64,000 nucleotides of DNA from Kineococcus mangrovi (GCF_041320705.1 NZ_JBGGTQ010000003.1:310001-374000), one strand, 5' to 3'; positions 1,004 to 38,925 are shown, counted from the stretch's first letter. Translations and numbers: made by a program. Notes: a model not told the origin generated them from the letters alone.

Positions 1004-1194
1004 GCGCCCCCCTCGCCGCCGACCGCTCGGTGTGCACGGGTGCGGGGCAGTGCGTCCGTGCCGCCGCCGACGTCTTCGACCAGGGGGACGACGGGCTCGT
1101 CGTCGTCCGTCGCCAGCCCGCGCCGGCCGAGCACCTCGACGTCCTGGCGGCCGTCGACGCCTGCCCGTCCCGAGCCCTGAGCTGGTCGGCGTGA
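1000..1194 (+). CDS. Small 3Fe-4S ferredoxin (P450 partner)
   Basis: A 64-aa ferredoxin. Cysteines are arranged as CTGAGQC (Cys-x5-Cys) near the N-terminus and a late DACP cysteine, the three-cysteine pattern of 3Fe-4S ferredoxins that feed actinobacterial P450s. The GTG start overlaps the P450 stop (GTGA), and the stop overlaps the following dehydrogenase start, so all three are likely translationally coupled. It should be cytosolic and pass electrons from an NAD(P)H reductase, not seen nearby, to the P450. Confidence 0.9.
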   Translation: MSAPLAADRSVCTGAGQCVRAAADVFDQGDDGLVVVRRQPAPAEHLDVLAAVDACPSRALSWSA

Positions 1195-16899: not shown

Positions 16900-17200
16900 G
16901 TGAGCGAGGGAGGGGGTGCGGTCGTGACGGGCGTCGTCGGAGCCGCCGGTTCCGCCGTGGCCGACGTGCTCGCCCGGCGGTGTCCCCCCTCGTCCCGGTC
17001 GACCGGGACGGCGACGCGCTGGACGGTGCCGCCAGGACCGTCCGCGCGGGGTTCCGCGGGCTTGTCGGGTGGGCGCCCCCCCGGGGTGCGCGGCCCGTCC
17101 CGTGGCCGGGGCCGTCGGGTCCCCGTCCGCCGACGCGGCCCGGCACACCGCCCTCACCGACCTGCTCGTCGACGACGGCGCCCCGCTGCGCGACCGACCG
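16900..17200 (+). pseudogene. Relic of a second dhbA, frameshifted and internally deleted
   Basis: Three reading frames successively resemble the intact DhbA at 1191-1958. From GTG 16900, AVVTGVVGAAGSAVADVL aligns with its Rossmann start VVVTGAAGGIGSAVV. After a shift near 16980, LVPVDRDGDAL aligns with VLAVDRDADGL. After another shift, ARHTALTDLLVDDGAPL (to about 17190) aligns with the C-terminal ARHVTLQDVVVDGGAGL. About 150 central residues, including Tyr-x3-Lys, are missing. The relic is followed directly by an intact dhbC copy, the same order as in the left cassette. Confidence 0.75.
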
Positions 17201-17218
17201 CCCTACTCCTGGAGCGTC

Positions 17219-18463
17219 ATGCCCCTCACCGGACCAGCACCGACACCAGCCGGAACACCCGCGCCGGGACCGACCCGCGCCCCTCGGCCCGCGGGAGACG
17301 CCGGCCGACTCCTCGCCGACTACCGCGACGGCTCGGTGTGGTTCTCGGCCGACCGGCGCCACCACCTCGGGACGGGAACCCGCCGTGAACTCTCCAGCGC
17401 CGAGGGCATCGGTCCCGGCCTGAGCGCGTCGACGACGTCTGCCCTGCGTCACGACCGTGACCACGGTGGCCCCGGCATCGCCCTGGGCGCGCTGCCCTTC
17501 GGTCCCGGAACCCCCGCGGCGCTCCGCATCCCGGACACGGTGCACCGAGCTGCCGGAACCGTCGGGAACGTCACCGCCGGGCTGCCCGCCGATCTCGTCG
17601 ACCTGGTCCCGCACCCGGGAGAGGCCGACTACGCGCACGCCGTCGCCACCGCCCTCCTGCGCCTGCGCGCCGAGGACGACGACCTGCGCAAGGTCGTGCT
17701 CAGCCGCACCCTGCGGGCCAGGACCCCCGCCCCCGTCGACGTCCGGGTGCTGCTGACCCGGTTGCTGTCCGCGGACCCCGACGCGTTCGTGTACGCCGTC
17801 GACCTGCCCCGCGACCCTGCCCGCGACGAGCCGGGCGGCGGTCCGCGCACTCTGGTGGGGGCCAGCCCCGAACTCCTGCTGGCCCGCCACGGCGACACCG
17901 TCACCGCGTGCCCGCTGGCCGGTTCGGCGCCGCGCTGCGAGGACCCCGCCGAGGACGCCCGCCGCGCTCGCGCCCTGCTGAGCTCGGCCAAGGACCTGAC
18001 CGAGCACGCCGTCGTCGCCGACGCCGTCCGCGGCGCCCTGGCGCCCTGGTGCCGGGACCTCGACGTGCCCGCCGTCCCGGAACTGCGCAGCAGCGCCACG
18101 CTGTGGCACCTGGCCACCCCCGTGACCGGTGTGCTCGCCTCCTCCAGCACGACCTCGCTGGACCTGCTGGCTGCCCTGCACCCGACCCCGGCGGTGTGCG
18201 GGGTCCCCGTGGACGCCGCGCGCCGGCTCATCGGCGACCTCGAACCGTTCGACCGCAGGTACTTCACCGGTGCCGTCGGCTGGTGCGACGCCGACGGGGA
18301 CGGGGAGTGGGCGGTCACCATCCGGTGCGCCGAGGTCCACGACCGCACGGTGACCCTGTTCGCCGGCGCCGGCATCGTCGCCGCGTCCGACCCCGACGCC
18401 GAGGTCGCCGAGACGGCCGCGAAGTTCCGGACCTCCCTCGCGGCGCTGGGGGTGGGCGCGTGA
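17219..18463 (+). CDS. dhbC: Isochorismate synthase (copy 2)
   Basis: 414-aa chorismate-binding enzyme with the key motifs retained: RKVVLSRTL, LVGASPELLLARHGD, CPLAGSAPR, SSAKDLTEHAVV, LHPTPAVCGVPV, FTGAVGWCDADGDGEW, GAGIVAASDPDAE. It is therefore likely active, unlike its relic neighbours. The frame extends upstream into the dhbA relic; ATG 17219 is chosen because GGAG lies six bases before it and similarity starts afterwards. It carries an extra 15-residue stretch (DPARDEPGGG region) compared with copy 1. Overlaps dhbE by GTGA. Confidence 0.88.
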   Translation: MPLTGPAPTPAGTPAPGPTRAPRPAGDAGRLLADYRDGSVWFSADRRHHLGTGTRRELSSAEGIGPGLSASTTSALRHDRDHGGPGIALGALPFGPGTPAALRIPDTVHRAAGTVGNVTAGLPADLVDLVPHPGEADYAHAVATALLRLRAEDDDLRKVVLSRTLRARTPAPVDVRVLLTRLLSADPDAFVYAVDLPRDPARDEPGGGPRTLVGASPELLLARHGDTVTACPLAGSAPRCEDPAEDARRARALLSSAKDLTEHAVVADAVRGALAPWCRDLDVPAVPELRSSATLWHLATPVTGVLASSSTTSLDLLAALHPTPAVCGVPVDAARRLIGDLEPFDRRYFTGAVGWCDADGDGEWAVTIRCAEVHDRTVTLFAGAGIVAASDPDAEVAETAAKFRTSLAALGVGA

Positions 18464-20190
18464 GGACCACCGCGACCGGGAGCACCGCGCCGGTGGACCC
18501 GGCGTCGTGGGAGCAGGCGTCGTGGGAGCAGGCGTCGTGGGAGCAGGCGTCGTGGGAGCAGACGCTGTGGGGCCAGTTCGACCGCAGCGCGCAGCAACGG
18601 CCCGGGGCGCTCGCGCTGGTCGCCTCCGACGCCCACGGCCACGACGTCCGCTGGTCCTACGCCGAGCTGCGCGATCGTGCGGTGCGGACCGCGGCCGGCC
18701 TGCTGCGGTCCGGCACGGCCCCCGGCGACCCCGTGCTCGTGCAGCTGCCCAACCGGGCCGAGTTCGCCGTCCTGGTCCTGGCGTCGTTCCGGCTCGGCGC
18801 CCGGCCCGTCTTCGCCCTGCCGGCGCACCGCTCCGGCGAACTGCGCCACGTGGCCCGGACGAGCGGCGCCGAGGTCTTCGTCACCGCCGACGTCACCGGC
18901 AGCGGGCGGGCGGCCTGCGACCACCGTGACCTGGCGCGCGACCTGACGACCGCCGACGACAGCGCCGTGCGGACCGTGCTGGTCGCCGGGGTGGCGCAGG
19001 AGTTCGCAGACCTCGCCGAGGTGGCGGTGGACGACGTGCAGGCCGCCGAGGCCGCGTTGCCCGCCCCGCCCGGACCCGCCGCGACGGCGTTCCTGCAGCT
19101 GTCCGGGGGCACCACCGGTCTGCCCAAGCTCATCCCGCGGACCGGGGGGACCTACGCGTACACCGTCTCGGAGAGCGCCCGGCTCTGCGGCTTGACGCCG
19201 GACAGCGTGATGCTCGTCGTGCTCCCGGTCGCGCACAACTACCCCATGAGTTCCCCCGGGATCCTGGGCACCTGGTGCGCCGGAGGCACGGTCGTCCTGG
19301 CCGCCGACCCGTCCCCGGCGGCCGCGTTCGAGCTCATCGCCCGCGAGGGCGTCACGCACACCTCCCTGGTCCCGCCGTTGGCCCTGCTGTGGACCGCGGC
19401 CGCGGAGGCCCGTGCCGACGAGCGCGGTACCGGTGCCGGCGCGCCCGACCTGTCGTCGCTGCGGGTGGTCGGTGTCGGCGGGGCCAAGTGCACCCCCGAA
19501 CTGGCCCGCCGCGTGCAGGAACTCCTCGGGGCCCGGTTGCAGCAGGTGTTCGGGATGGCCGAGGGGCTGGTGAACTACACCCGCCTGGACGACCCCGACG
19601 ACGTCGTCCTCACCACCCAGGGCCGCCCGCTCAGCCCGCGGGACGAGATCCGCGTCGTGGACGAGCAGGACCGTGACGTCCCCGACGGTGAACCCGGGTT
19701 CCTCCTCACCCGCGGCCCGTACACGATCCGCGGGTACGTCGCGGCCGACGGTTCGGCCGAGGCGCACAACCGCACCGCGTTCACGGCCGACGGGTTCTAC
19801 CGGACCGGTGACCTCGTCCGCCGCCGTCCCGACGGGAACCTCGTCGTGGAGGGCCGGGACGCCGACCGCATCAACCGCGGCGGGGAGAAGCTGTCCGCCG
19901 AGGAGGTCGAGGACGTGCTGCTCACCCTGCCCGGGGTGCACGACGTGGCCGTCGTCGGCCTGCCCGACGAGTTCCTCGGCGAACGCACCTGCGCGTTCGT
20001 CGTCCCCCGGCCCGGTGCGAGCCCCACCGTCGGCGACGTCCGCCGGCACGTGCGGGCCGCGGGCCTGGCCGAGTACAAGGTCCCCGACCGCGTGGAACTC
20101 CTCGACTCCTTCCCGCCCACGGCCGTGGGCAAGACCAGCCGGCGCCGGTTGCGCGCCGCCCTCGCCGAGCTCGTCCGCGCCCGCGCGTGA
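18460..20190 (+). CDS. dhbE: 2,3-dihydroxybenzoate-AMP ligase
   Basis: Stand-alone aryl adenylation enzyme (576 aa) that activates DHB and loads it on the aryl carrier protein. Motifs: LSGGTTGLPKLIPRT (P-loop), [47 protein letters not shown], and the C-terminal catalytic Lys in AVGKTSRRRL. Ser in MSSPG and Val in GLVNY are the residues I recall for DHB rather than salicylate enzymes (Cys/Leu there). Only one copy exists in the window. Its N-terminus contains a 15-bp tandem repeat (18502-18576). GTG start overlaps the dhbC stop. Confidence 0.93.
   Translation: MRTTATGSTAPVDPASWEQASWEQASWEQASWEQTLWGQFDRSAQQRPGALALVASDAHGHDVRWSYAELRDRAVRTAAGLLRSGTAPGDPVLVQLPNRAEFAVLVLASFRLGARPVFALPAHRSGELRHVARTSGAEVFVTADVTGSGRAACDHRDLARDLTTADDSAVRTVLVAGVAQEFADLAEVAVDDVQAAEAALPAPPGPAATAFLQLSGGTTGLPKLIPRTGGTYAYTVSESARLCGLTPDSVMLVVLPVAHNYPMSSPGILGTWCAGGTVVLAADPSPAAAFELIAREGVTHTSLVPPLALLWTAAAEARADERGTGAGAPDLSSLRVVGVGGAKCTPELARRVQELLGARLQQVFGMAEGLVNYTRLDDPDDVVLTTQGRPLSPRDEIRVVDEQDRDVPDGEPGFLLTRGPYTIRGYVAADGSAEAHNRTAFTADGFYRTGDLVRRRPDGNLVVEGRDADRINRGGEKLSAEEVEDVLLTLPGVHDVAVVGLPDEFLGERTCAFVVPRPGASPTVGDVRRHVRAAGLAEYKVPDRVELLDSFPPTAVGKTSRRRLRAALAELVRARA
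18502..18576 (+). repeat. 15-bp in-frame minisatellite in dhbE
   Basis: Four exact copies of GCGTCGTGGGAGCAG (18502-18561), encoding Ala-Ser-Trp-Glu-Gln four times, followed by a degenerate fifth unit (ACGCTGTGGGGCCAG, 18562-18576). The last unit corresponds to the normal conserved start of DHB ligases (a Trp shortly before the first helix). Copy number can change by replication slippage without breaking the frame. Confidence 0.95.
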
Positions 20191-20219
20191 CCCGCAGCCC
20201 CGTCCACCCAGGAGCCACC

Positions 20220-20774
20220 GTGACCAGCACCACCCTGCCCGGGACCACGATCCCCACCCTCGTCGACCACCCCCTCCCGCGGCCGGCGGAGCTGCCCGCG
20301 CCCCGGGTGGACCGGGCCCCCGACCCCGCGCGTGCCGTCCTGCTCCTGCACGACCTGCAGGAGCACTCCCTCGACGCCCCCACCCCCACGTCGCGAGCGC
20401 AGCCGCCGGCCGCCGTCCGGCGGGTGCGGGGGAGCGGGCGCCGTCCCGAACGCGCCGGGACCGCGGCCGAGGTCGCCCCCCGCGGTGGGGACACCGTCCT
20501 GCCCGAGCGGCGCCACTCCGCCTCCCACCGCTCCACCCCCGGCGCGGACCCGGCCCGGTCCGGGCGCGACCAGCTCCTGGTCACCGGGGTCTGCGCGAGC
20601 ACCGGCCGCCAGGTCAGCGCCTGCGAGGCGTTCACGGGCGACGTGCAGCCGTTCCTCGTCGGCGACGCCGTGGCCGACGTCGACCGCGCCCGCCACGACG
20701 GGGCGCTGGGCTGGGTGAGCGCCACCTGCGGGGTCGTGCTGTCGGCCGACCGGGTGGACGAGGTGTTCGCGTGA
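20220..20774 (+). pseudogene. Decayed isochorismatase (frame intact, catalytic residues lost)
   Basis: 184-aa product clearly related to the intact DhbB at 3045-3731: LLLHDLQEHS at the N-terminus and RDQLLVTGVCAS, DVQPFLVGDAVADVD at the C-terminus. The nucleophile Cys is replaced by Arg130 (STGRQ against SIGCW), the Lys region LTKHRYSA has become LPERRHSA, and some 35-40 central residues are missing with low similarity in between. Only the Asp is kept. No stop or frameshift is present; AGGAG precedes GTG 20220 and the stop overlaps the next gene, so it is probably still translated, perhaps just to keep coupling. Confidence 0.8.
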
Positions 20775-22060
20775 GCGGCACCCTGGACCTGCTCGGGGTC
20801 GGTCTCGGCCCCGCCAACCTCGCCCTCGCCCTCGCCGTGGACGAGGTGACCACCCCGTTCGAGGCGTTGTTCGTGGAGCGCCAGCCGACCTTCGGCTGGC
20901 ACCGGGGGATGCTGCTGCCCGGGGCCACGCTGCAGGTGTCCTTCCTCAAGGACCTGGTGACCCAGCGGAACCCGACCAGCCCGGCGAGTTTCGTGTGCTA
21001 CCTGCACGAGCGGGGCCGGCTGGCGGACTTCGTCAACGCCCGCACCTTCTACCCGACGCGGTTGGAGTACCACGACTACCTCGAGTGGGCCGCCGCCCGG
21101 GTGCGCACCCCCGTCCGCTACGGCACGTCGGTCACGGCGCTGCGCGGGGTGCGCGAGGACGGGCGGGTCGTCGCCGTCGAGGCCGAACTGTCCGACGGTT
21201 CGCTCGCCCGCGCCCGGTCGGTGACCCTCGGCACCGGGTTGCGTCCGCGGCTGGCGCAGGGTCTGACCCACAGCGACCGGCTGCGGCACACCGCGACGTT
21301 CCTGCCGGACGTCGAGGAGTTCGAGGCCACCGGCGCGCAGCGACCCGTGTTCGTCGTCCTGGGTTCGGGGCAGAGCGCCGCGGAGGTGGTGCACCACCTG
21401 CACCAGCGGTTCCCCACCGCCCACGTGCACTCGGTGTTCCGCTCCTACGGGTTCTCCCCGGCCGACGACAGCCCGTTCGCCAACCAGGTGTTCGACCCCG
21501 AGGCGGTCGAGGAGTTCCACGCCGCACCGGCGGCGGTGCGCGAGGAGCTGCTGCGCCGGCACGCGGGGACGAACTACTCCGTGGTGGACCTCGACCTCAT
21601 CGAGGAGCTGTACCGCCTGGAGTACGCCGAACGCGTGGCCGGGACCCACCGCCTGCACCTGCACCGCGCCAGTGAGGTCGTGGACGTGTCCGAGACGACC
21701 GACGCGGTCGCGGTGACGGTCCGGGAACGCACGACCGGTGCCGTGCAGCACGTCCGGGCCGACCGGGTGTTCTGCGCCACCGGGTACGACCACCTCGACC
21801 CCGCGGAACTGCTGACGGACCTGGCCGGGTCCGTCCTGCGCGACGCCGCCGGGCGGGTCCGCGTGCGCCGCGACCACCGACTGGTCACCACCGACGACGT
21901 GACCGCGGCGATCCACCTCCTGGGCGGCACCGAGCACACCCACGGGTTGAGTTCGTCCCTGCTGTCCAACGTCGCCCCCCGGGCGGGGGAGGTGCTGGAC
22001 GCCGTGCTGGCCGACGCTTCGGCGCCCGCGCGTCCCGGCCGCCCCGCCCTCGTCCCCTGA
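20771..22060 (+). CDS. L-ornithine N5-monooxygenase (PvdA/SidA type)
   Basis: FAD- and NADPH-dependent hydroxylase (429 aa) making N5-hydroxyornithine, the hydroxamate building block. Seen: FAD motif [12 protein letters not shown] at residues 9-20, [20 protein letters not shown] near 60, [12 protein letters not shown], the NADPH motif [11 protein letters not shown] and the late [10 protein letters not shown]. The QRNPTSP and FYPTR segments resemble PvdA-type ornithine enzymes more than lysine hydroxylases, from memory. GTG start overlaps the preceding gene. The hydroxyornithine code read from the third NRPS A domain supports this. Confidence 0.92.
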
Positions 22061-22076
22061 CCGAACGGAGAGACCT

Positions 22077-22292
22077 GTGACCAACCCCTTCGACGACCCC
22101 GACGGCCGCTTCCTGGTCCTCGTCAACGCCGAGGACCAGCACTCCCTGTGGCCCGCGTTCGCCGCCGTCCCCGCCGGGTGGGACACGGTCTTCGGGCCGG
22201 GTTCCCGCGAGGACGCGCTGGCCCACGTGGAGGCGCACTGGACCGACCTGCGCCCGCGGAGCCTGCGCGAGGCGATGGCCGACCGGTCGTGA
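22077..22292 (+). CDS. MbtH-like NRPS chaperone
   Basis: 71-aa protein with the family fingerprint: [15 protein letters not shown], then [10 protein letters not shown] (Asn-x-Glu-x-Gln-x-Ser-x-Trp-Pro), PAGWDTVFG and [12 protein letters not shown]. MbtH proteins bind adenylation domains and are often needed for their folding and activity. It sits three genes from the NRPS it presumably serves. Its stop overlaps the start of the reductase gene (GTGA). Confidence 0.97.
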
Positions 22293-23101
22293 GGGCCGGT
22301 CTCGCCGCGTCGCCCGAGGTGCCCACCAAGGTCGGGTACCCCGTCGGCCTGCGGCGACTCGTCGTGCTGCGCCGGGAACAGCTGAACCGGTCGCTGCTGC
22401 GCGTGGTGCTGGGCGGTGCGGACCTCGCGGGTTTCTGCAGCCGGGTCCCCGAGGAGCACGTGCGCCTGCTGTTCCCCGATCCCGACGGGAGCCTGCGGCT
22501 GCCCGTCCCCGAGGGACCCGACCTGCGCTGGCCCCGGCCGCTGCCGACCTCGCGGGAGTACACCGTCCGCCACCACGACCCCGACGCCGGGGAACTGTGG
22601 ATCGACCTGGCCGTGCACCCCGGGGGGTTGGCCTCGGACTGGGCCGTGGCCGCGGCCCCGGGGACCCGCGTCCACGTCGCGGGTCCTCCCGGCGGGATGG
22701 TGCTGCCCGGGGGCTTCGACCGGTTCCTGTTCGCCGGGGACCTCACCGCCCAGCCCCAGATCGCCCGTTACCTCGAACGCCTGCCGTCCACCGCGACCGG
22801 CTGGGCCGTGCTCGACGTGGTCGACGCGGGTGAGGAACTCCCGATGACCGCACCCGCCGGGGTGCAGGTGAGCTGGGTGCACCGCGGCGACGTCCCGGTG
22901 CACCCCGGCGGTGCCTTCGAGCGGGTCCTGCGTTCGCTCCCGCTCGACGGGGGCGCCCGGACCTTCCTCTGGATCGCCGGTGAGGCGGGGGTCCTGAAAC
23001 CCCTGCGCCGCTGGGTCCGCCACGACCTGGGCCTGCCCCGCTCCGACCACCTCGTCACCGGTTACTGGAAACGCGGCGTCGCCGACTACGACGAGGACTG
23101 A
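22289..23101 (+). CDS. Siderophore-interacting protein (FAD ferric-siderophore reductase, ViuB type)
   Basis: 270-aa cytosolic flavoprotein expected to reduce ferric siderophore and release iron. Motifs of the SIP family: [10 protein letters not shown] (flavin binding R-x-Y-T), [26 protein letters not shown] and the C-terminal [15 protein letters not shown] (Tyr-Trp-Lys-x-Gly). GTG 22289 overlaps the mbtH stop. Present in the same operon as the NRPS, it completes the cycle of synthesis, import and iron release. Confidence 0.93.
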
Positions 23102-23133: not shown

Positions 23134-26100
23134 GTGAACTCCGTGGACCCCACCCGCACCGGCCTGCCGCTGACCGCGGCCCAGCTCGGCATCTGGAACG
23201 CCCAACGCCTCGACCCGGCCTCCCGCGACTACCTCGTCGGGGAGGTGCTGGAGGTCCGCTCCGAGCGCCCGGTCGACGTGGACGCGTTCGCGGAGGCGGT
23301 GCGGCGCACCGTGGACGAGGCGGAGACCCTGCGGGTGCGGGTGCACGAGACCCCCGACGGCCCCCGGCAGGTGGTCGACCCCGCCCCCGCGACGGGGCCC
23401 GACGTGATCGACCTGCGCGGGGAGAGCGACCCGCGGCTGCTCGCCGAGACCCTGGTCGAGGCCGAACGCGCCCGCGCCTCGGAGGCCTGCCGGGCCGTGG
23501 TGGACCGTGAACTGCACACCCACGTCCTGCTGCGGTTGTCCGACACCGAGGTGTGGTGCGTGCAGCTCTACCACCACCTCGTCGTCGACGGGTACTCCGC
23601 CGCCGTCCTCACCCGCCGCGTCGCCGCGCACCACACCGCGCTGGTCACCGGCCGACCGGTCGCGCCCTGCACCTTCGGCACCCTGGAGCAGGTCGTGGCC
23701 GCCGACGCCGCCTACCGCGCCGGCGAGCGCGCCGGCGTCGACCGTGAGCACTGGCGGCGCGCCCTCAGCCCGCTGCCCACCGACCGCGCCGGTCTCGTCC
23801 CCCTCGCCGGTCCCGACGCCGCGCGCCGGACCCTGCGCAGTCGCGCGGTGCTCGGCGTCGAGCAGGTGCAGCGGCTGCACGCCGTCGCCGAGGGGCTGCG
23901 CAGCACCTGGGCGGACGTCCTCATCGCCGGGTACGCCGGGTTCCTGCACCGCTGGCACGGGTGGCGCGACGTCGTGCTCGCCCTGCCCGTGATGGCCCGC
24001 TCCGGGGTGCTGCTGCGCACCCCGGCGATGGCCGTGAACGTGCTGCCGCTGCGGGTCCGGGTCGAGGGGCAGGACACCGCCGCCGACCTCGTGGCCCGGG
24101 TCGGGGAGGACCTGACCACCCTGCGCCGCCACCAGCGCTACCGCGGCGAGGACCTGCCCGCCGACCTGGGCGACCCCCGCGCCGCGGACCTGCTGCACGG
24201 GGTGGGCATCAACGTGAAGGCGTTCGACCTGCACTTCGACTTCGCCGGCGCGCGGGGGGAGCTGCGCAACGTCGCCGGCGGGCCCCCGGAGGACCTCGGC
24301 CTGACCGTCACCCCGCTGCCCGGGGGGGAGCTGTTGCTGGGGTTCGAGGTCGCGGCCGCGGGCACCGACCAGATCAGCCTGGACCGGCGCACCGAGGCCC
24401 TCGTCCACGTCCTGGACCGGTTCCTCGGCCTGGGCGGCCCCGACGAGGCCGCCACGGGTGTCTCGCTGGCCGACGTCGAGCTGCTCACCCCGCAGCGGCG
24501 CACGCAGGTGCTGGCCGAACGCGCCGTCCCCGGCGCCGGTCCCCTGGTTCCCGGCGCGGTGCCTGAGCACCCCGTGGACGCCCTCGTGCGGCTGGCGCTG
24601 GCCGACCCCGACGCGCCCGCGCTGACCGCCGGCGCGGTCCGCTGGAGCCGCGGCGAGCTGGCGCAGCGGGTGCACCGGCTGGCCCGGGTGCTGCGCTTGC
24701 GCGGGCTCGGCCCCGACGACGTGGTCGCGCTGGCCCTGCCCCGGACCGGGGACCTCGTCGTGGCCCTGCTCGCCGTCCTGGAGGCCGGTGCCGCCTTCCT
24801 GCCCCTGGACCTGACCCACCCGCCGACCCGTCGCCGCGAGCTCGTCGTCGAGTCCGGTGCCGTCCTCGTCCTGGGCGCGGAGCAGGACTGCCCCGTCCCC
24901 GTGCTCGGGCTCGACGGGACCGGGGACGGGGACGCGACCCCGGTGCGCCCCGAGGAGCTGGCCGCCCCCCGGCACCCCGAGCACCTGGCCTACGTGACCT
25001 GCACGTCGGGTTCGACCGGGCGGCCCAAGGCGGTCGGCACCCGGGTCGGCGGGTTGACCGCCCTGCTGCAGCACCAGCGCGGCACCGTCCACGCCGACGC
25101 CGCGGCCCGGGCCGGGCACCGGTTGCGGACCGCGCACTCGGCCTCCTTCGCCTTCGACGCCGCGATCGACCAGCTGCTGTGGCTGCTCACCGGCCACGAG
25201 GTGCACCTCTACGACGAGGACGTCGTCCGCGACGCCGCCGCGCTGGTGCGGGCCCTGCGCGCCGACGCCGTCGACGTGCTGGACACCACCCCCGCGATGG
25301 CCGGGCAGCTGCTGGACCACGGGCTGTTCGCCGACGCGGCCCCGCTGAGCACCGTTCTCGTGGGGGGAGAAGCGGTCCCGGCCGCGCTGTGGCGACGGCT
25401 CGCGGACGCGGCCGGTGCCGCGGGGGCGGTGGTGTGGAACGTGTACGGCCCCACCGAGGCCACCGTCGACGCCCTGCTCGGCCGGGTCGAGGGGCCGGAC
25501 GTCGTGGTCGGCGGACCGCTGGCCGGCACTCGCGCCCACCTGCTCGACGAGACCCTGCGCCCCGTCCCGGACGGGCAGCGCGGGGAGCTGTACCTGGCGG
25601 GTCCGCACCTGGCCCGCGGCTACCTCGACCGCCCCGGGGCCAGCGCGGAACGGTTCGTCGCCGACCCCTTCGGCGCTCCCGGCGAGCGGCTCTACCGCAC
25701 CGGGGACCTGGCCCGCTGGGTGCCCGGGCGGGGTCTGCAGGTGCTGGGCCGCGGGGACGGGCAGGTCAAGGTCCGTGGACACCGGGTCGAGCTGGGCGAG
25801 GTCGAGACCGCCCTCGGCGCGCTGCCGGGGGTGGCCGCGGCGGCCGCCGTCGTCCGCACCGACGGCCCCGCCCCCCGGCTGGTCGGGTACGTCGTGCCGA
25901 CCGGCGCCCGGGAACTCACCGGGACGGTGCTGCGGACCGAGCTGACCGGGGTCGTGCCCGACCACCTCGTGCCCGCCGCCGTCGTCGTGCTGGACGTCCT
26001 GCCGCTGACCGGGAACGGGAAGCTCGACCGTGCCGCACTACCTGCGCCGCAGCGTGTCCCGACGTCGGGCGGGGTGGTCCGCACCCCCGCGGAGGAGGCC

Positions 26101-29100
26101 GTCTGCCGCGTCGTGGGGCAGGTGCTCGGGGTGCCCGCGGTGGGTCCGGAGGACGACTTCTTCGCCCTCGGCGGGGACAGCATCTCCGCGATCAGCGTGA
26201 GCGCCCGGCTGCGGGCCGACGGTCTGGACCTGCGGCCCCGGGAGGTGCTGGCCCGCCGCGACCTCGCCCTCACCGCAGCGACCGCCCGGCCGCTGGTGGG
26301 GGCGCCGGACGGCGGCCCGGGGGCGGCCCCGGCCGCACCCGCGGCGCAGGACCACGGGGTCGGCCGTGTGGAGGCCCCGCCCGTCGTCCGCGACCTGCTG
26401 GCCGCCACCCCCGACGCCGCCGCCCTCGTCGGCTACGCGCAGTGGACCGTCCTGGAGGTCGAGGAGACCACGCAGGAGCAGGTCGGGGTGGCCGTCCAGG
26501 CCCTGCTCGACCACCACGACGCGCTGCGGCTGGTGCTGCGGGCCGGGACCCGTGAGCTGTTCGTCCGCGCGCCCGGGGCGGTGCGGGCGAGGGACCTGGT
26601 GTCGGTGACGGACGCGGGAGACCTGCCGGAGGCGGGGGCCCGGGCCGCCGCGACCCTCGACCCCCGCCGCGGCCACGTCCTGCACGTGGTGCTGGTCCCC
26701 GGCGCCGACCGGGCGCGGCTCGTCGTGGCCGTGCACCACCTCGCTGTCGACGGGGCGTCCTGGCGCACCCTGCTGCCCGACCTCGCCGCGGCCTGCGCCG
26801 ACGCCCGCCGGGGTGCTGCACCGCGCCTCGCCCCGGTCGCCAGCTCGTGGCCGCAGCACACCGCCGCCCTCGCCGAGCAGGGCCGGACCGGCGCCCGCGG
26901 TGACGAGGTCGAGCACTGGCGGGGCGTCCTCGCCGGTGGTGACGACGTGCTCGGCGCACGGGTGCTGGACCCGGTGCGCGACACCGCCGCCACCCTGCGC
27001 ACCGAGCGCACCACCACCCCCGCCCCCCTCGCCCGGCCCCTGCTGGACGACCTGCCGCGGGCCTACCGCTGCGGCCCCGACCACGTCCTGCTCGCGGCCC
27101 TCGTGCTGGCGCTCACCGCCTGGCGCGACGGGGCCGGGACGTCGGCGCTCGTCGGGCTGGAGGGGCACGGACGCGACGCCGAGGCGGGTCTGGACACCTC
27201 GCGCACGCTCGGGTGGTTCACCACCGAGTTCCCCGTGCGGGTCCCGACCACGGCGATCGGCACCCCGGCGACGCTCCTGGACGCCCTGGGCGGGGGACCG
27301 GCCGCCGGGCGGTTGCTGCGCGCGGCCAAGGAGGCCGTGGTCACCACCCCGGGCGCGGGAACGGGGTTCGGGGTGCTGCGCCGCCTCGACCCGCGCACCA
27401 CGCCGGAGTTCTCCGCCCGGCCCACCCCGCAGGTCCTGCTGAACTACCTCGGGAACGCACCGTCGGACCTGTCCGTCGCCGAACCCGCGGCCAAGTCGCT
27501 CACCGAGTGCCTCGTCGTGAACGTGGTCGTGACCCCCGAGGGGGCGCTGGACGTCGAGTGGTCCGTTGCCGGGAACGTGCTCGACGCGGCGGAGACGGCT
27601 GCGCTGCAGGAGCACTGGCACGAGGCGGTCGCGGCGCTGGCCGTGCACGCCGGCCGCAGCGCGGGGGGCCTGAGCCCCTCGGACACCACCGCGGACCTCA
27701 CCCAGGACGACCTGGACAGCCTCGAGGCGACCCACGGCCCCCTCGACGACGTCCTCCCGCTGACCCCGCTGCAGGAGGGGTTGCTGTTCCACGCCGTCCT
27801 CGCGGCGGAGGGGGGTGCCGCGGACGCCTACGGTCTCGCCGCCCGCCTCGACCTGGCCGGGGACCTGCACCCCGACGGGGTGCGCGCGGCCCTGGACACC
27901 GTCCTGGCCCGGCACCCCAACCTCGGGGGCGCCTTCGTCCCGGACCTGCTCGACGTCCCCGTCCAGGTGCTGCCCCGCGACCCGCGGGTGGGCTGGCGCA
28001 GCCTCGACCTGTCCGCGCTGCCCGCCCGCGCGGCGCAGCGGGCCGCACGGGCCGTCGAGGACGAGCTGGCCGCCGACACCCCGGCCGTCACCGCCGCGCC
28101 GCTGCTGCGCGCGGTCCTGGTGCGGCTGCCCGAGGAGTCGGGACGGGCGCGGCACCACCTGCTGCTCGGCACCCACCACCTGGTCACCGACGGCTGGTCC
28201 ACCCCGGTGGTGGTCGCCGAGCTGCTGACCCTGCTGCGGGGCGGCACGTTGCCGGCCCCGGCCGACGTCCGCGTCCACCTGCGCGCCCTGGCCGGCCACG
28301 ACCGCGCGGGCGACCGGGAGTTCTGGGCCGCGCAGCTGGCGGGGTTGGCGCGGCCCACGCTGCTGGCCCCCTCGCCCGCGGGTCCCGGGTCGGTCGAGAC
28401 CGTCCCCGTCCCCGTCCCCGCCGGGGTCGAGAGCTTCGCCCGCGACCACGGCCTCACCCTCACCACCCTCGTGCAGGGCTGCTGGGCGGCGGTGCTGGCC
28501 GAGAGCACGGGCGATCCCGACGTCGTGTTCGGGGCCGTCGTCTCCGGACGCCCCGCCCACCTGACCGGGGTGGAACGCATGGTCGGGCTGTTCAGCAACA
28601 CCGTGCCGGTCCGGGTCCGCCTGGACCCCGACCGTCCGCTGCTGGAGCAGTTCCCGGCACTGCAGGAGAACAGGTTCGCCGCCCAGGAGCACGAACTCAC
28701 CAGCCTGGCCGAGATCGAACGCGACACCGGTCTCGGGCGGTTGTTCGACACGTTGCTGGTGGTCGAGAACTTCCCGGCCGCCGCGCCGCACGACGGGGCG
28801 GACCCGGAACTCCTGGGGATCGTCAACCGCGGGGGTACGCACTACCCGCTGACCCTGCTCGTCCTGCCCGGCGGCGACCTCGCGGTCCAGCTGCAGCACG
28901 ACCCGGCCGCCGTGGACGTCGAGCGGGCCCGGGCCCTGGTGGACCGGTTCGCCGCGCTCCTCGCCGGGCTCCTCGAGGGCCCCGGCGCCGGTCCGGCGCT
29001 GGACCTGGGGCCGCGGCCGGGGGTGGTCGAGGCTCCCGCGGCGGGGGAGCGGACCGCGCTCGACCGGCCCGCGGCCCCCGGCCCGCACGGTCCCGGACCG

Positions 29101-32100
29101 GTCGAGGTGGTGCGCGCGGAGTTCGCCGCCGTCCTGCCGGTGGCGGCCCCGGCCCTCGTGGGCGCCGAGGACGACTTCTTCGCCCTCGGCGGGCACTCGC
29201 TGCTCGCCCTGCGGTTGGTGTCCCGGCTGCGCCGCCGGGGGGTGGTCGTGCGCGTCGCCGACGTGTTCGACGCGCGCACCCCGCTCGCGCTGGCGGCCGT
29301 GGCCGGGGTCGGGGGGGCACCGGCCGACGCACCGTCCCCGGCCCTCGCCCCCGCACCGGTCCCGCCGACCGCGACCGGTGACCCGCTGTCCCCGGCGCAG
29401 GAGCGGTTGTGGTTCCTGCACCGCCTGGAGGGGCCCTCGACCAGCTACGACGTCCCCCTGCTGCTGCGGCTGCGGGCCCCGGGGCCCGCCCTGGACGTCC
29501 CCGCGCTGAGGGCAGCCTGGGCCGACGTGCTGGAGCGTCACGCCGTCCTGCGCACCACCTACCCCGAGGTGTCGGGGGTGGCCACCCGCCGCGTGCTGGA
29601 CCCCGGCGCGGTCCGGGAGCTGCAGGTCCACGACACCACCCCCGAGGAGGTGCCCGCCGTGACGCGCGCCGTCCTCGCCGACCCCGTCGACCTGACGACG
29701 ACCGCCCCCGCCCGGGCGCACCTGCTGCGCACCGGCCCGCGGGAGGCGCTGCTGGTCCTCGTCGTGCACCACATCGCGGTCGACGAGTCGTCCTTCGCGC
29801 CCTTGCTGGCCGACCTCGACGTGGCCCTCACCGCCCGCAGGGCCGGCACCGCCCCGCGCTGGAGCACCGTCGCGCCGTCGGACCTGGAGCACGCCCGACG
29901 GCAGCGGGCCGCCGCGGGCGACCCCGCGGGGGAGGAGTTCTGGCGCTCGGAGCTGGCCGACCTGCCCGCGGAACTCGACCTCCCGGTGGACCGGCCGCGA
30001 CCGGACTCGCCCGCCCACCGCGGGCGGGTGCTGCAGCAGGACCTGCCCGCGGCGGTGCGGCACGAGATCACCGCGCTGGCCACCGCGCACGGGGTCAGCC
30101 CGTTGATGGTGCTGCAGTCCGCGGTCGCGGCCACCTGGCAGGCCCTCGGCGCCGGGGACGACGTGCCCCTGGGCACGACGGTGACCCAGCGCGAGGACGA
30201 GGACGAACCGCGGGCCGTGGGGTACCGGGTGAACACCCTCGTGGTGCGCTGCGACCTCACCGACCACCCGACCTTCTCCGCGGTGCTGCACCGGGTCCGG
30301 CGCGCCGTCCTGGACGCGGTGCAGCACGCCGCCGTGCCCTTCGAGCGGGTCGTGGAACTCCTCGACCCGCCCCGGTCGCCGGCCCGGGCGCCGCTGTTCC
30401 AGACCCTCGTCTCGCACGAGGTGCTGCCCGCCGAGCCCCCGCGGCTGGGGGACCTGGAGACCGCGGTGGTGACCCCCGAGGTCGACACCTCCCGGTTCGA
30501 CACCGCGTGGTGGCTGGTCGACGGTCCGGGGGGTTCCGCGATCCGGCTCGTCGTGGACGCGGACCTGTTCGAGGCGCCGACCGCCCGTTTCCTGCTGGAC
30601 GCGGTGCTGCGCCTGCTGACGCAGGCCGTGGCCGAGCCCGAGCGCGGGGTGCACGAGCACGCCCTCGCCGGCACCGCGCAGCGCACCGACCCGCCGCGGC
30701 GACCGGAGCTGCCCGCCGGGGTGGCGGTGGACTTCGCCACCCAGGTCGCCCGCATCCCCGACGCCGAGGCGCTCGTCGCCGACGGGGTGTCGCTGAGCTA
30801 CGCCGAGCTCGGTGCCCGGGTCGACGCGCTGGCCGCGCGGCTGGTGGCCGCGGGGGCCGGACCCGAACGACTGGTCGCCGTCGGGGTGCCCCGCGGCGCT
30901 GACCTCGTCGTCTCGCTGCTGGCCGTGCTCCGGGTGGGGGCGGCGTACCTGCCCTTGGACGTCGACCACCCGCGGGACCGGCTGGAGCAGGTCCTGACCG
31001 ACGCCCGTCCGCTGTGCCTGCTCACCGGCCCGGGGACCCCGGCCGCGATCGGCGCGCTGGTGCCCGACGTGCCCGTCGTGGCCGTGGACGCCCCGGCCGC
31101 GGCCGGGACCGTCGGGGAGCGGCGGACCCCCGACGGGGTCGTGCTGCCCCCGCCCCCGCCGGCGGGGGAGCACCTGGCCTACGTCCTGCACACCTCCGGC
31201 TCGACCGGGCGGCCCAAGGGCGTCCTGGTGACCACCGCGAACCTGGCCTCCTTCGCCGCCACCGTGGTGGCCGACGGCTGGGTGGGCCCGGGGGACCGGC
31301 TCGTGGCCGTCACGACGGTGTCCTTCGACATCGCCGTGCTGGAACTGCTGCTGCCGCTGACCACCGGGGCGAGCGTCGTCCTGGCCGACCGGCGCACCGT
31401 GCGGGACCCGGACGCCCTGCACGACCTGCTGGCCGCGCAGCGGGCGACCGTCGTGCAGGCCACCCCCTCGTTGTGGCGGCCGCTGGTGGAGCACGAGCGA
31501 GCCGCGGAGCTGGGCGGGGTCCGCGCCCTCGTGGGCGGGGAGGCGCTGCCGGAGGACCTGGCCGCGCAGCTGCTCTCCGTCTGCGGCGGGGTCCGCAACG
31601 TCTACGGCCCCACCGAGGTGACCGTCTGGGCGACCGGTGCGCGACTGCGGGCGGGGGAACCGGTCACCATCGGGGAACCCTGGACCGACGTGCGGGTGCG
31701 GGTGCTGGACGCAGGGTTGCGCGAGGTCCCCGACGGGGTCGCCGGCGAACTCCACCTCGGTGGCGCGCAGGTCGCCCGCGGCTACCTCGACCGCCCGGGG
31801 CTGACCGCCACCCGGTTCGTGGCCGACCCCGGCGCGGCGGGGGAGCGGCTGTACCGGACCGGGGACCTGGTGCGCCGCCGCCACGGCCGCCTGGAGTTCC
31901 TGCGCCGCGTCGACGACCAGGTGAAGGTGCGGGGTTTCCGCATCGAACTCGGTGACGTCGAGACGGCGTTGTCCCGGGTCGAGGGGGTGGCCCGGGCCGC
32001 GGCCACGGTGCGAGCCGACGAGTCCGGTGCGGGGCGCCTGCTCGGCCACGTCGTGCTCGACCCGGGTGTGGCGCCGCAGGGGGAGCGCGTGCGGGCGGCG

Positions 32101-35100
32101 GTGGCCGAGGTGCTGCCGGAGTACATGGTCCCGCAGGTGGTCACCGTGCTGGACGACCTCCCGCTGACCCTGAACGGCAAGGTGGACCGGCGTCGGCTGC
32201 CCGTCCCGCAGGACGCCGCGGTCGTCGGTCGCCGACCGGGGACCGCGGTCGAGCAACTCGTGTGCACCCTCGTCGACGGGCTGCTCCACCGTTCCGGGGC
32301 CGGACCCGACGACACGTTCTTCGGTCTGGGCGGGGACAGCATCTCCTCGGTGCGCCTGGTCGCCGCGTTGCGGGACAACGGGTGGGCGGTGCGGGTGGCC
32401 GACGTGTTCGAACGGCCCACGCTCGGGGACCTCGCGGGTCTGGCCGAACCCGTGCGGGCCGACGCCCCGCGAGCCGAGGAGGTGGGGTCGGCCCGCCCCG
32501 GACCGACCCGCGAGCAGCGGGCCCGGCTGGACCGGCTCAGCCCCGGTTGGCGGGAGACCCTGCCCCTCGGGCCGTTGCAGGAGGGGATGTACTTCCAGTC
32601 CGTCACCGAACCCGGCGCCGACCGCTACCTGGTGCAGCACGCGCTGGACCTCGCACCCGGGTACGACGCGACCGCCTGGCGGCGCGCGGTCGGTGGCCTG
32701 CTCCTCCGCCACGACGCCCTGCGGGCCGGGTTCACCCACACCGGGTTCGACGGCCCGGTGCAGTTCGTCGCGGCCCCGGGTCCCGTCCCGTTCCGCGAGG
32801 TCGACGTGGACGGCCCGGCAGCGGCCTGCGACCTCGCGGCGGCGGAGTTCACCGCGGGTTTCGACCTGGCCGCACCCCCGCTGGTCCGGTTCGTCCTGGC
32901 CCGGTTCCCGGACGGGCGCGCGCGGCTGCTGTTCACCCAGCACCACCTGCTGACCGACGCCTGGTCCCAGGGGATCCTCCTGACCGAACTCCTGCGGTTG
33001 CACGACGCCGCCCGCGGCGGCCGTGACGTCGAGACCGAGCTCCCGCCCGCCCCGCAGGTCCGGGCGCACCTGGAGCGGGTGGCGGGGATCGACACCGTCG
33101 CAGCGCAACACCGCTGGTGCGAGCACCTGGACGGTCTGGAGGGACCCACGCTCGTCGGGGGTGCGTGGGGTCCCGGCCCGGAGCCGGACGCCGTCCCGTT
33201 GCCGCACCGGCGGCGTCGGCGGGTCGAGGACTCGACGGCCGGGGCCCTCACGCGCAAGGCCCGGGAGGTGGGCTGCACGCCGTCCACGGTCGTGGCCGCG
33301 GCGTGGGGCCTGACCTTGCGCGGGCTCACCGGTCGTGACGACGTCGTGTTCGGTTCCACCGTCTCCGGGCGCGACCCGGAGGTGCCCGGGGTCGAGGAGA
33401 TCGTCGGGTTGCTGCTGAACACCGTCCCGGTGCGCATCGCCACGACGCCGGGGGAACCCGTGGCGGACCTGCTGCGGCGCACCGGCAGCGAGCAGGGCCT
33501 CCTCAGCGCCCACCACCAGCTGGGTCTGGGCCGGTTGCAGCGCGCGAGCGGGCACCCGGTCCTGTTCGACACGTTGTTCGTGTTCCGCAACCTGCACCGC
33601 GACCCCGCGGCCCGGGACGTGCTCCTGTCGGCGTCCGGGGTCGACGCGGTGGAGGCCGTGGACGGCACCCACTACGCCCTGACGCTGGACGTGGACCCGC
33701 AACTGGACGGGGGCGCGGGGCTGGGGGTGACCCTGGAGAACCGCCCGGACCTGGTCCCCGACGCAGTGGCCGAGGAGGTGCTGGACCGCTTCGTGACGGT
33801 GCTGACCCGGGTGCTCACCCCCGGCGCGCGGGTGGCCGACACGGCTGTCGCGGTGGCAGCGGACGAGCGGTTCACGCCCGAGCCGGTCGCCGTCCCCGGA
33901 CCCGGTCAGGCGGGGGGCAGCGTGGACGCGCTGCTGCGGCAGCGGGCCGCCGACGACCCCGACGGACCCGCCCTGACCTGCGGGGACACCCGGCTGAGCG
34001 CGGCTCAGGTGGACACGCGGGTGGATCGGCTGGCCCGGCTGCTCGCCGCGCGCGGTGCGGGAGCGGGAACGGTCGTCGCCCTCGCCCTGCCCCGCACCGC
34101 CGACCACGTGGTCGCGATCTTCGCCGTGCTGCGGACGGGTGCGGCCTACCTCCCGCTGGAGGCGGGCGCCTCACCGGAACGCGCCCGGCGACTCGTCGCC
34201 GACGCCGGGGCGGACCTCGTCGTCGGCACCGCCGACCGCTGCGCGCCCCTGCGCGGCGCCGACGCGGAGCTCCTCCTGCTCGACGACCCGGTCCTGGCCG
34301 AGGTGCTGGACGGCACCCGGCCCGCACCCGCGGTCGCGGACGGCGCCGTCGCCGGACCCCTCTGCGCCGACCAGCCGGCCTACGTCATCTACACGTCCGG
34401 TTCCACGGGAACTCCCAAGGGGGTCGTCGTCGGGCACCGCGGGTTGACGACGATGTTCCACAACCACGCCGCGGAGATCTTCGACCCCACCACCCGCGCG
34501 GCCGGGAACCGCCGGTTGCGGATCGCGCACACCGTCTCGTTCTCCTTCGACATGTCGTGGGAGGAACTGTTCTGGATGCTCGCCGGGCACGAGGTGCACG
34601 TCGTCGACGAGCAGGCCCGCCTCGACCCGGCCCGTCTCGTCCAGCACTACCGGGAGGTGGGGATCGACGTCGTGAACGTCACCCCGTCCTACGCCCGGGA
34701 ACTGCTGGCCGGCGGTCTGCTGGACGGCGACCGCACCCCGGTGCTGGTGCTGCTCGGCGGGGAGGCCGTCCCCCCGGGGCTGTGGGACCGGTTGCGGGAG
34801 CAGGAGGGGGTCGAGGGGTACGACCTGTACGGGCCGACCGAGTTCACCGTCAACGCCCTCGGGTCGTCGGTCCGCGACAGCGCGACCCCGTGCCTGGGGC
34901 GGCCGGTCCGCAACGCCCGGGCCCACGTCCTGGACTCCGGGTTGCGCCCCGTCCCGGTCGGGGCGGTCGGTGAACTGCACCTGTCCGGGGACGGGACCGC
35001 CCACGGCTACCTGGGACGGCCGGGTGCGACCGCCGCGGCGTTCGTGGCCGACCCCTTCGCGGCCGACGGGTCCCGGATGTACCGCACGGGAGACCTGGTC

Positions 35101-36384
35101 CGACGCCGCCCCGACGGGGAACTGCAGTACCTGGGCCGGTCCGACGGTCAGGTCAAGGTGCGCGGTTTCCGCATCGAACTCGGTGAGGTCGAGGCCGCGC
35201 TGGCCCGCTGCCCCGGGGTGGTGCAGGCCGCGGCCTCGGTGCGGACCGAAGGCCCCGCCCCGCGCCTGGTCGCCCACGTCGTGCTGGCCCCCGGGACGAC
35301 CGCGCCGAGCGACCTGCGCACTGCGGTGCGGACGTGGTTGCCCGCGCACGCCGTCCCGTCGCAGGTCGTCGTGGTCGAGGAGATGCCGTTGACCCCGAAC
35401 GGGAAGCTGGACCGGGCCGCCCTGCCCGCCCCCGCTGCCGACCGCCCGGCCCGTCCGCCCGCCGACGACGCCGAACGGCGGGTGTGCGAGGTCGTGGGGG
35501 AGGTGCTGGGGCTGACCGAGGTGGACCCCGACGCCGGTTTCTCCGACCTCGGCGGGGACTCGCTGACCGCCATGCGGTTGGTCGCCGCGTTGGAGGCCCG
35601 GACGGGGACGACCGTCCCGGTCACCGACCTCCTTGCCCAGCCCACCATCGCCGGGATCGCTCGCCGGGCCCGTGCGGCGGGAGGTCCCCCGGCCTCCGAG
35701 GCGCTCGTCGTGCTGCGGTCCGAGGGACGTGCGGAACCGGTGTTCTGCGTCCACCCGGCCGGGGGTTCGGCCTGGCCGTTCGCGGGGTTCGCCGCCTGGT
35801 CCTGCGCCGACCGCCCGGTGCTGGGGTTGCAGCTCACGGCCCCGGAACCGGAGACGTTCGACGACCTCGTGGACCGCTACGCCGCCCTGGTCCGCGGCCG
35901 CCAACCCGTCGGGCCCTACCACCTGCTCGGTTACTCCTTCGGGGGGAACGTCGCGCTCGCCCTGGCCGAGCGGCTGACGGCGACCGGGGCCGAGGTCGCG
36001 TTCGTGGGGGTCTTGGACGCCGCGCCGGTCGACGGGTCCCCGCGGGCGGTGACCACCCCGGTGGACCCCGCCTGGCCCGCCGCCGTGCAGCGCGCCCACC
36101 GCACCTGCGTCCGGTTGCTGGCCGAGGCTGGACCTCCCGAGTTCGGCGGTGAAGTGACCCTGGTCACCGCGGGGGTTCCCGCGCCACCCCACGACGGGGA
36201 GGGTCCGGCCGCTGTGACCGCGGCGTGGTCCCGGGCCCACCGCGGCCCCCTCGTCACCCACCACGTCCCGCACGACCACGACGGGTTGGTGAGCGACGCC
36301 GGCTGGGCCGACGTCGTCCCCCTGCTCGACGCGGCACTCGCGGTGCGACCCCAGGAAGACACGACGAACGGAGACGCACGATGA
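23134..36384 (+). CDS. Siderophore NRPS: C-A-T-E-C-T-C-A-T-C-A-T-TE
   Basis: 4416 aa. Domains (approximate residues; carrier serine or active His given): C1 10-460 (His147/148, HHLVVDG); A1 476-970 (Lys963); T1 Ser1016 (GGDS); E1 1050-1510 (HHLAVDG 1201-1207, EGHGR); C2 1537-1960 (HHLVTDG 1681); T2 Ser2022 (GGHS); C3 2085-2520 (HHIAVDE 2212-2218); A2 2533-3025; T3 Ser3069; C4 3143-3580 (HHLLTDA 3270-3276); A3 3594-4100; T4 Ser4143; TE with Ser4268 (GYSFGG). Specificity codes read by hand: A1 DADDLGVVDK (unclear, several acidic residues, suggesting a basic substrate), A2 DILQLGVVWK (glycine type), A3 DMENLGLVNK (N5-hydroxyornithine type). C2-T2 has no A domain. C1 would accept DHB from the free carrier protein. 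Predicted product: DHB-(D-basic residue)-Gly-hydroxyornithine, released by the TE. Starts with GTG; ATGA overlap with the next gene. Confidence 0.95.
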
Positions 36385-37409
36385 ACTCGCCCACCACCCC
36401 CCGCCCGCTGCGGCGGCGGGGCGTTCTCGCCGGGGTCACCGGCTTGGCCCTGCTGCTGGCCGGTTGCGGGGGCTCCGGTGACACGGCAGGTGGTGAACCG
36501 TCGGCCGCGGCCACCTCCTCGACGGCCCCGGAGGAACGGACGATCAGCACCGAGCAGGGCGAGGTCACCGTCCCGGGCGACCCCCAGCGGATCGTGGTGC
36601 TCAGCGGGGGTCTGGCGGGTTACCTGTTCGCCCTCGACGCGCCCGTCGTCGCCACCGACACCCGGGTCCTGGGCGTCACCGACCTCGAGGGCGGGTTCCC
36701 GCCGTCGTGGTCGCAGGCGGCCCAGGAGCAGGGCACGACCGCGCTGCCGGCCGGTGAGGAACTGAACGTCGAGGCCGTCGCCGCCGCGTCTCCCGACCTC
36801 ATCATCGGTGGGGGGCAGGGCATCACGGCTGTGCAGGCGCAGGAGTCCTACGACCAGCTGACCACCATCGCGCCCACCGTCCTGGTCCCGACGACCACCA
36901 CGGCCTGGCAGGACCAGCTGGCCGCGGTGGCCGAGGCGGCGGGGCGGACCGACGGGGTCGAGGCTCTCACCGACGCCTACGACGACAAGGTCTCGCAGGT
37001 GAGGTCCGCCATCACCGTGCCGCAGGGGAACGCGGTGTTCATCCTGTCCCTGCCCAACGGCAAGCCCTACCTGATCCCGGCGACGGCGGCGCTGCCGCAA
37101 CTGACCGCCGAACTCGGGTTCACCCCCGACGACGTCGTCACCAAGGCGGGGAACCCGCAGTTGTACGGCAGCGGTGACTCCTTCGAGGTGAGTGCGGAGC
37201 TGTTGTCCCAGGTGGCCGACGCCCCGAACGCGTTCGTCGTGAACCTGGGTGGTCGCAGCCTGGCCGAACTCCAGCAGGACCCGATCTACGCGGCGTTGCC
37301 CGCCTTCGCCTCCGGTCAGGTGCACGAACTCCCCGCGGTCAGCTACCGCCCCGACTACGACGGGGCCATGACCGCGCTGGACGCCCTCGCCGAGCGGTTC
37401 TCGTCCTGA
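36381..37409 (+). CDS. Ferric-siderophore-binding lipoprotein (FepB/FhuD type)
   Basis: 342 aa. Signal with Arg-Arg-Arg, hydrophobic stretch and lipobox LLLAGC, so probably a membrane-anchored lipoprotein. The body has the class III periplasmic-binding fold landmarks [28 protein letters not shown] and the C-terminal [15 protein letters not shown] 36381 overlaps the NRPS stop (ATGA). No FecCD-type permease or matching ATPase is encoded in the window, so it may hand ligand to the ABC proteins at 11588-15129 or to a permease elsewhere. Confidence 0.9.
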
Positions 37410-38671: not shown

Positions 38672-38925
38672 CGGACGGGACGGGGACCCACGAGGTGGAC
38701 GCGGCACGCCTGCGCACCGACGTGGCGGAGATCCTGGGACTGGACCCTGCGGAACTGACCGAGGACGAGGACCTGTTCGACCGCGGGATGGACTCCGTGC
38801 GGTTGATGGCCCTGTTGGGGCGCTGGCGCGCGGCAGGGGTGGGCGACCTGGAGTTCGCCGACCTCGCCGAGCAGCCCGAGCTGAGGCACTGGGCCAGACT
38901 GGTGACGTCGACGTGGACACGCTGA
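38668..38925 (+). CDS. Free-standing aryl carrier protein
   Basis: 85-aa acyl-carrier-type protein. The phosphopantetheine site is Ser43 in FDRGMDSVRLMALL, a variant of the aryl carrier motif found at the C-terminus of EntB. DhbE would load DHB here and C1 of the NRPS would accept it. AGGAGG precedes ATG 38668, which overlaps the exporter stop (ATGA). It replaces the carrier domain missing from both isochorismatase genes. Last gene of the operon. Confidence 0.93.
   Translation: MTDGTGTHEVDAARLRTDVAEILGLDPAELTEDEDLFDRGMDSVRLMALLGRWRAAGVGDLEFADLAEQPELRHWARLVTSTWTR

Follow-up and report, generated by a model that had tools for sequence, protein, structure and literature searches.

A module without an adenylation domain in a predicted siderophore synthetase of Kineococcus mangrovi

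The window analysed here is a stretch of 64,000 nucleotides from Kineococcus mangrovi (GCF_041320705.1 NZ_JBGGTQ010000003.1:310001-374000), and it carries a gene for a large nonribosomal peptide synthetase (NRPS). An initial annotation of this DNA pointed out that the second module of the synthetase has a condensation (C) domain and a carrier (T) domain, named C2 and T2, but no adenylation (A) domain to load T2. The locus thus raises the question of how T2 is charged, and whether the module adds a residue to the product. The module is old and conserved, probably relays glycine, and is not a defect. In the reading that we favour, to which we assign a probability of roughly 0.58, one glycine A domain downstream loads both T2 and the following carrier, T3, and the product would be DHB-D-Arg-Gly-Gly-hydroxyOrn (DHB, 2,3-dihydroxybenzoate; Orn, ornithine).

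The junction in the window and its relatives

Pfam recognizes five Condensation, three AMP-binding, four PP-binding and one Thioesterase domain in the synthetase. The domain bounds used here were taken from hidden Markov models (HMMs) built for this analysis, and the resulting order agrees with Pfam (Table 1). The features described in the initial annotation are all present: C2, a linker, T2 and C3 follow one another in the parse, C2 stands after an epimerization (E) domain and retains an intact HHLVTDG motif (28174-28194), and the GGHSLL motif of T2 occupies residues 2019-2024, with the codon for Ser2022 at 29197-29199. Inspection of the C2-T2 linker revealed no recognisable remnant of an A domain. 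Because long open reading frames (ORFs) are cheap in DNA of 77% G+C (an antisense ORF of 2689 aa is also present), the evidence that the gene is coding is its codon-position composition (GC2 0.53, GC3 0.95), intact motifs and homologs, rather than its length. A-domain codes are the residues at the Stachelhaus positions. By the usual code-to-substrate assignments we take the codes of A1, A2 and A3 to be basic/Arg-like, Gly and hydroxy-Orn type, respectively.

Relatives were collected by a scan for the C2-T2-C3 arrangement (one genome per species), by added genus searches and by parsing of whole genes, and they present four forms of one line. The window and 11 further complete relatives constitute form 2, C2-T2-C3-A(Gly)-T3. 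The relatives share the order C-A-T-E-C-T-C-A-T-C-A-T and matching codes (basic/Arg-like, Gly, hydroxy-Orn), and their C2-T2 linkers measure about 37-56 aa, a recurrence of the C2-T2-C3 junction that exceeds what chance would give. They come from Pseudonocardia acaciae, Nocardia brasiliensis, N. vulneris, three more genomes from the N. brasiliensis genus search, one Kocuria metagenome-assembled genome and four Rhodococcus/Rhodococcoides. Partial or split copies were additionally found (L024, L137 and L156); in L137 (G046, Rhodococcus search) the line is split just after C3 into C-A-T-E-C-T-C and A-T-C-A-T-TE (TE, thioesterase) ORFs. Form 1, found in Hoyosella (n = 2), is C2-A-T2-C3-A(Gly)-T3. 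The initial annotation had proposed alignment of orthologs to see whether the A domain is absent throughout the clade: it is absent in the 11 complete form 2 relatives, but Hoyosella has one at this place.

Forms 3 and 4 are shorter. In form 3 (Rhodococcus globerulus and eight congeners parsed) the order is C2-T2-[C-terminal remnant of C3]-A(Gly)-C4, the N-terminal half of C3, including its HHxxxD motif, having been lost from all nine synthetases. In form 4, from two genomes of the Nocardia search, C3 is wholly gone (C2-T2-A(Gly)-C4). T3 is absent from 11 of 11 form 3 and form 4 synthetases, which keep the Gly code, and the 31-41 residues that separate A(Gly) from C4 are too short to hold a carrier. 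The T2 of these forms has a mean identity of 58% to form 2 T2 versus 43% to T3, and is thus orthologous to the T2 of the A-less module. No other ortholog was identified in 11 genomes of the genus Kineococcus (that of the window included) and one more of the family, and the two C-T-C lines returned by a class-wide search (n = 250) are more distant and belong to different kinds.

A tree of C1-A1-T1-E-C2, rooted with outside synthetases, has form 2 lineages branching first, with Hoyosella nested among them; long branches (window and Kocuria) call for caution on the exact branching order. A constraint that groups all A-less members against Hoyosella and the outgroup was rejected (approximately unbiased (AU) test, p-AU 0.0006). 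The inserted Hoyosella A domain looks intact and has the code DVAEYGTVD. Among the domains compared it is nearest to A domains of Nocardia synthetases (50-52% identity), and it is not closest to those of its own line. Together, these results place the A-less state as ancestral in this synthetase family and the Hoyosella A domain between C2 and T2 as a derived insertion, and forms 3 and 4 as lines that lost C3 and T3. Hoyosella as the ancestral full form was considered, and dropped after the rooted tree and the AU test.

These findings bear on the suggestions in the initial annotation that an A domain had been excised, or that an assembly collapse between about 28960 and 29090 had hidden one. 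NRPS genes of high G+C are repetitive and do collapse in assemblies. However, independent assemblies of several genera share the junction, their linkers are of similar length, and the rooted tree makes the A-less state ancestral. We therefore dropped an assembly collapse or a recent deletion at about 28960-29110 as having a negligible probability; an older loss of an A domain is possible.

In the form 2 relatives, purifying selection acts on both T2 and C3. In close pairs, dN/dS (the ratio of nonsynonymous to synonymous substitution) is about 0.04-0.1 for T2 and about 0.1-0.25 for C3, a constraint like that on neighbouring domains. In most form 3 pairs, dN peaks in the gutted C3, at about 2-5 times the value of most neighbouring domains. 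Also conserved among relatives are the T2 serine and the C2 HHxxxDG motif, and the active-site His of C3 and the Ser of T3 are kept in the complete C-T-C-A-T synthetases examined. The view in the initial annotation that the module looks functional is supported by these patterns.

Loading of the second carrier domain

C2-T2 may be understood as an old, functional elongation module that borrows its A domain. The Gly A domain, A2, would charge T2 (across C3) as well as its own T3 with glycine. C2 would then join DHB-D-Arg on T1 to Gly on T2, C3, with an HHxxxDE motif suited to Gly as acceptor, would join DHB-D-Arg-Gly to Gly on T3, and C4 would add N-hydroxy-ornithine. The predicted chain, DHB-D-Arg-Gly-Gly-(N-OH)Orn, is one residue longer than three aminoacyl A domains would give. 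Such a surplus residue was foreseen in the initial annotation, and as a prediction it is the best reading that we can offer.

The shorter forms point to the A domain responsible. Forms 3 and 4 leave glycine no carrier other than T2, which is thus most likely loaded there by the Gly A domain downstream, and the line would most easily have survived the loss of T3 if this A domain could already load T2. We give even odds to the corresponding history, in which a single downstream Gly A domain ancestrally charged both its own carrier and the preceding A-less carrier across an intact C domain, followed by deletion of C3 and T3 in some lineages, which gave the heterobactin C-T-A module, and insertion of a foreign A domain in Hoyosella. 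Among the sources of the second residue listed in the initial annotation, the A domain of the next module (A3 there, A2 here) is favoured, whereas A1 and a pure pass-through of the chain are disfavoured because T2 is the only carrier available to glycine in the derived C-T-A form.

A further indication comes from C3. Its nearest match in the Protein Data Bank is the PCP2-C3 didomain (PCP, peptidyl carrier protein) of the fuscachelin synthetase of Thermobifida fusca (8fx6/7kvw, E ~3e-73), whose C3 condenses the donor DHB-D-Arg-Gly with an acceptor Gly and bears HHxxxDE, a motif variant linked to small acceptors (PMC8097023). The window C3 has the same form (HHIAVDE). Fuscachelin module 2, however, has its own A domain (judged by residue numbering, PCP2 Ser2514), and the remainder of the fuscachelin line is unlike that of the window (Ser, hydroxy-Orn, non-linear assembly). 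T2 orthology, the constraint on C3 and its likeness to fuscachelin C3 favour glycine on both T2 and T3. Whereas the domain order, its conservation, the succession of events in the tree and the purifying selection in relatives are observed, we infer the substrate names, the charging of T2 by A2 and a product with two glycines.

Several points weigh against this reading. Loading and product are predictions for the form found in the window, and the substrates are read from code tables. In the gutted form, T2 may have come to be served by the Gly A domain no earlier than the loss of T3. The motif argument for a Gly acceptor is only suggestive, as the Gly position of HHxxxDG varies in C3 of the family (E, A, T or G). 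An A domain that reaches a carrier across a C domain is also uncommon.

If T2 does carry glycine from A2, it is conceivable, though we consider it unlikely, that C3 and T3 are bypassed or structural, and that the chain moves from T1 to T2 to C4 to yield a heterobactin-sized DHB-D-Arg-Gly-hydroxyOrn. The derived C-T-A-C form, which has neither C3 nor T3, seems to run in this way. Nevertheless, the retained C3 His and T3 Ser and the purifying selection in close pairs would be unexpected for idle domains.

A somewhat less likely reading still is that A1 loads T2 in cis, or that an A domain from another gene does so in trans, and that the second residue is not glycine. The logic would be that of syringomycin, ramoplanin and albicidin. 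Loading in trans is the textbook solution for A-less modules (PMC8949500), the Hoyosella A domain in the corresponding module has a code different from that of A2, and further NRPS A domains exist elsewhere in the genome. However, no gene for a stand-alone aminoacyl A or A-T protein is found repeatedly beside the orthologs, those free A domains that were tested being DHB ligases, and no aminoacyl A domain besides the DHB ligase was identified in the flanks checked. The orthologous T2 also seems to carry Gly in the C-T-A form. That T2 is never aminoacylated, and that the module is skipped or hands on the chain with no residue added, is improbable. Module skipping is known in NRPS, but a C domain can move the chain only onto an acceptor that bears an amine, and the conserved T2 Ser, conserved C2 HHxxxDG and strong constraint on T2 argue for a working carrier.

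The siderophore gene cluster

The genes around the synthetase make up a catecholate-hydroxamate siderophore set, with functions for both DHB synthesis and activation and ornithine N-hydroxylation (Table 1). Also in the cluster is a gene for an exporter of the major facilitator superfamily.

Table 1. Predicted features of the synthetase and its gene cluster in the window (positions counted from the first nucleotide).
Feature	Residues	Position	Strand	Remarks
Isochorismate synthase-like (Chorismate_bind)		17069..18463	+	
2,3-Dihydroxybenzoate-AMP ligase domain		18541..20154	+	TIGR02275, 580 bits, under cut-off 723.55
L-ornithine/lysine N-monooxygenase (PF13434)		20780..21790	+	putative source of hydroxy-Orn
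Siderophore-interacting protein, ferric reductase type		22148..23101	+	
NRPS gene	4416 aa	23134..36384	+	C1-A1-T1-E-C2-T2-C3-A2-T3-C4-A3-T4-TE; A1 basic/Arg-like, A2 Gly, A3 hydroxy-Orn
C1	11-431			starter C; HMM parse
A1	490-972	24601..26049	+	code DADDLGVVD; basic residue, probably Arg
T1	989-1045			HMM parse
E	1083-1507	26380..27654	+	epimerization; would turn first residue into D
C2	1541-1951	27754..28986	+	DCL-like, after E
C2-T2 linker	41 residues	28987..29109	+	Pro/Ala/Gly-rich; usual A-domain site
T2	1993-2054	29110..29295	+	carrier of A-less module
C3	2084-2504	29383..30645	+	LCL-type; HHIAVDE
A2	2537-3025	30742..32208	+	glycine-type code DILQLGVVW
T3	3043-3101	32260..32436	+	carrier of Gly module; GGDSIS
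C4	3143-3563			HMM parse
A3	3604-4100	33943..35433	+	code DMENLGLVN; N-hydroxy/formyl-hydroxy-ornithine type
T4	4117-4176			HMM parse
TE	4202-4396			HMM parse
Siderophore-binding periplasmic-type protein (Peripla_BP_2)		36225..37409	+	
Free-standing carrier-protein-like domain		38707..38904	+	PP-binding 35 bits; candidate aryl carrier for DHB

Adjoining the otherwise intact cluster is a decayed isochorismatase copy (20187-20774), which is missing about 35 residues with conserved motifs and has an altered Lys in its TKWRYSA-type motif. A better preserved copy (2877-3731) belongs to a second DHB-type operon at the start of the window (1032-3731: a short-chain dehydrogenase/reductase, a chorismate-binding enzyme and the intact isochorismatase). 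Upstream of that operon (G000:C3:292-304 kb) is an NRPS cluster with Cys-type codes (DLFNLSLVW and DLFNLSLIW), and two aryl-capped siderophore clusters may thus lie side by side. Because the isochorismatase ORF has no carrier domain, T2 was considered as the missing aryl carrier for DHB. This role was rejected as unneeded, given the free-standing carrier-like domain and the role of T2 in the C-T-A form.

A-less modules that follow E domains may be a recurrent design. A Streptomyces/Lentzea synthetase (S. scabiei 87.22 and others; codes DVWHSGSVT, DVWHVGAVD and DLTKVGEVG) has an A-less module directly after E, in the order E-C-T-C-A. Another NRPS line of the K. mangrovi genome (G000:C6:250984-267595) has two A-less modules over three ORFs, C-A(DGDDTGLVD)-T, C-A(DADDVGLVD)-T-C-T-E-C-T and C-A(DMENLGLIN)-T-TE. 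This line appears conserved in one congener, and an Orn/Lys N-monooxygenase is encoded nearby.

Comparison with known systems and significance

Orthologous domains, Gly and hydroxy-Orn codes and a joint tree with the R. globerulus line indicate that the window line is a synthetase of the heterobactin family, for a DHB-hydroxamate siderophore. Heterobactin is DHB-Arg-Gly-hydroxyOrn with a second DHB on the guanidine. It is said to be built on Arg, Gly and hydroxy-Orn by a synthetase, HtbG of Rhodococcus erythropolis PR4, whose second module is reportedly C-PCP-A. The C-T-A form of the R. globerulus group (R. globerulus NBRC 14531 and eight congeners checked, all with an orthologous line) fits this description of HtbG. 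Like the window line, the HtbG-type line has a starter C, a basic/Arg-type A, E, a DCL C2, T2, a Gly A, C4 and a hydroxy-Orn A, with DHB genes nearby. It lacks the N-terminal half of C3 and T3, whereas the window line retains both, departs in this respect from a strict C-PCP-A organization, and could add one residue more. The Hoyosella orthologs share the line, codes and positions of C2, T2 and C3 with the window, and differ by the A domain between C2 and T2.

A-less modules loaded in trans or by a shared A domain are already known. The single A domain of the yersiniabactin synthetase HMWP2 serves three carriers, PCP1 and PCP2 in cis and PCP3 in trans (PMC9547227). As proposed for the window, one A domain shared between modules charges an A-less carrier, but in HMWP2 this domain is upstream of the A-less module and supplies Cys for heterocyclization, whereas in the window it lies downstream and would load Gly. 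Module 9 of syringomycin SyrE (C-T-TE) and the ramoplanin and enduracidin modules, which like the window module have no working A domain, are loaded in trans by separate A-T proteins (PMC8949500). No such partner (a stand-alone A or A-T gene) was found in the flanks examined, although one may lie far away in the genome. We found no description in the literature searched of the fuller C-T-C-A-T form, its wide occurrence or its role as a forerunner of HtbG, a weak absence given thin coverage of primary sources.

Prediction of products from sequence is unreliable where modules lack A domains. By comparing four forms of one orthologous synthetase, we arrive at a specific, testable answer as to which A domain would load the carrier, with one extra glycine as its consequence. 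The comparison also suggests how the odd C-PCP-A module of the heterobactin synthetase may have evolved. The Hoyosella insertion marks a C-T boundary at which nature added an A domain, which would be useful for NRPS engineering. If the proposed history is true, these synthetases form a natural series of NRPS lines that gain and lose residues.

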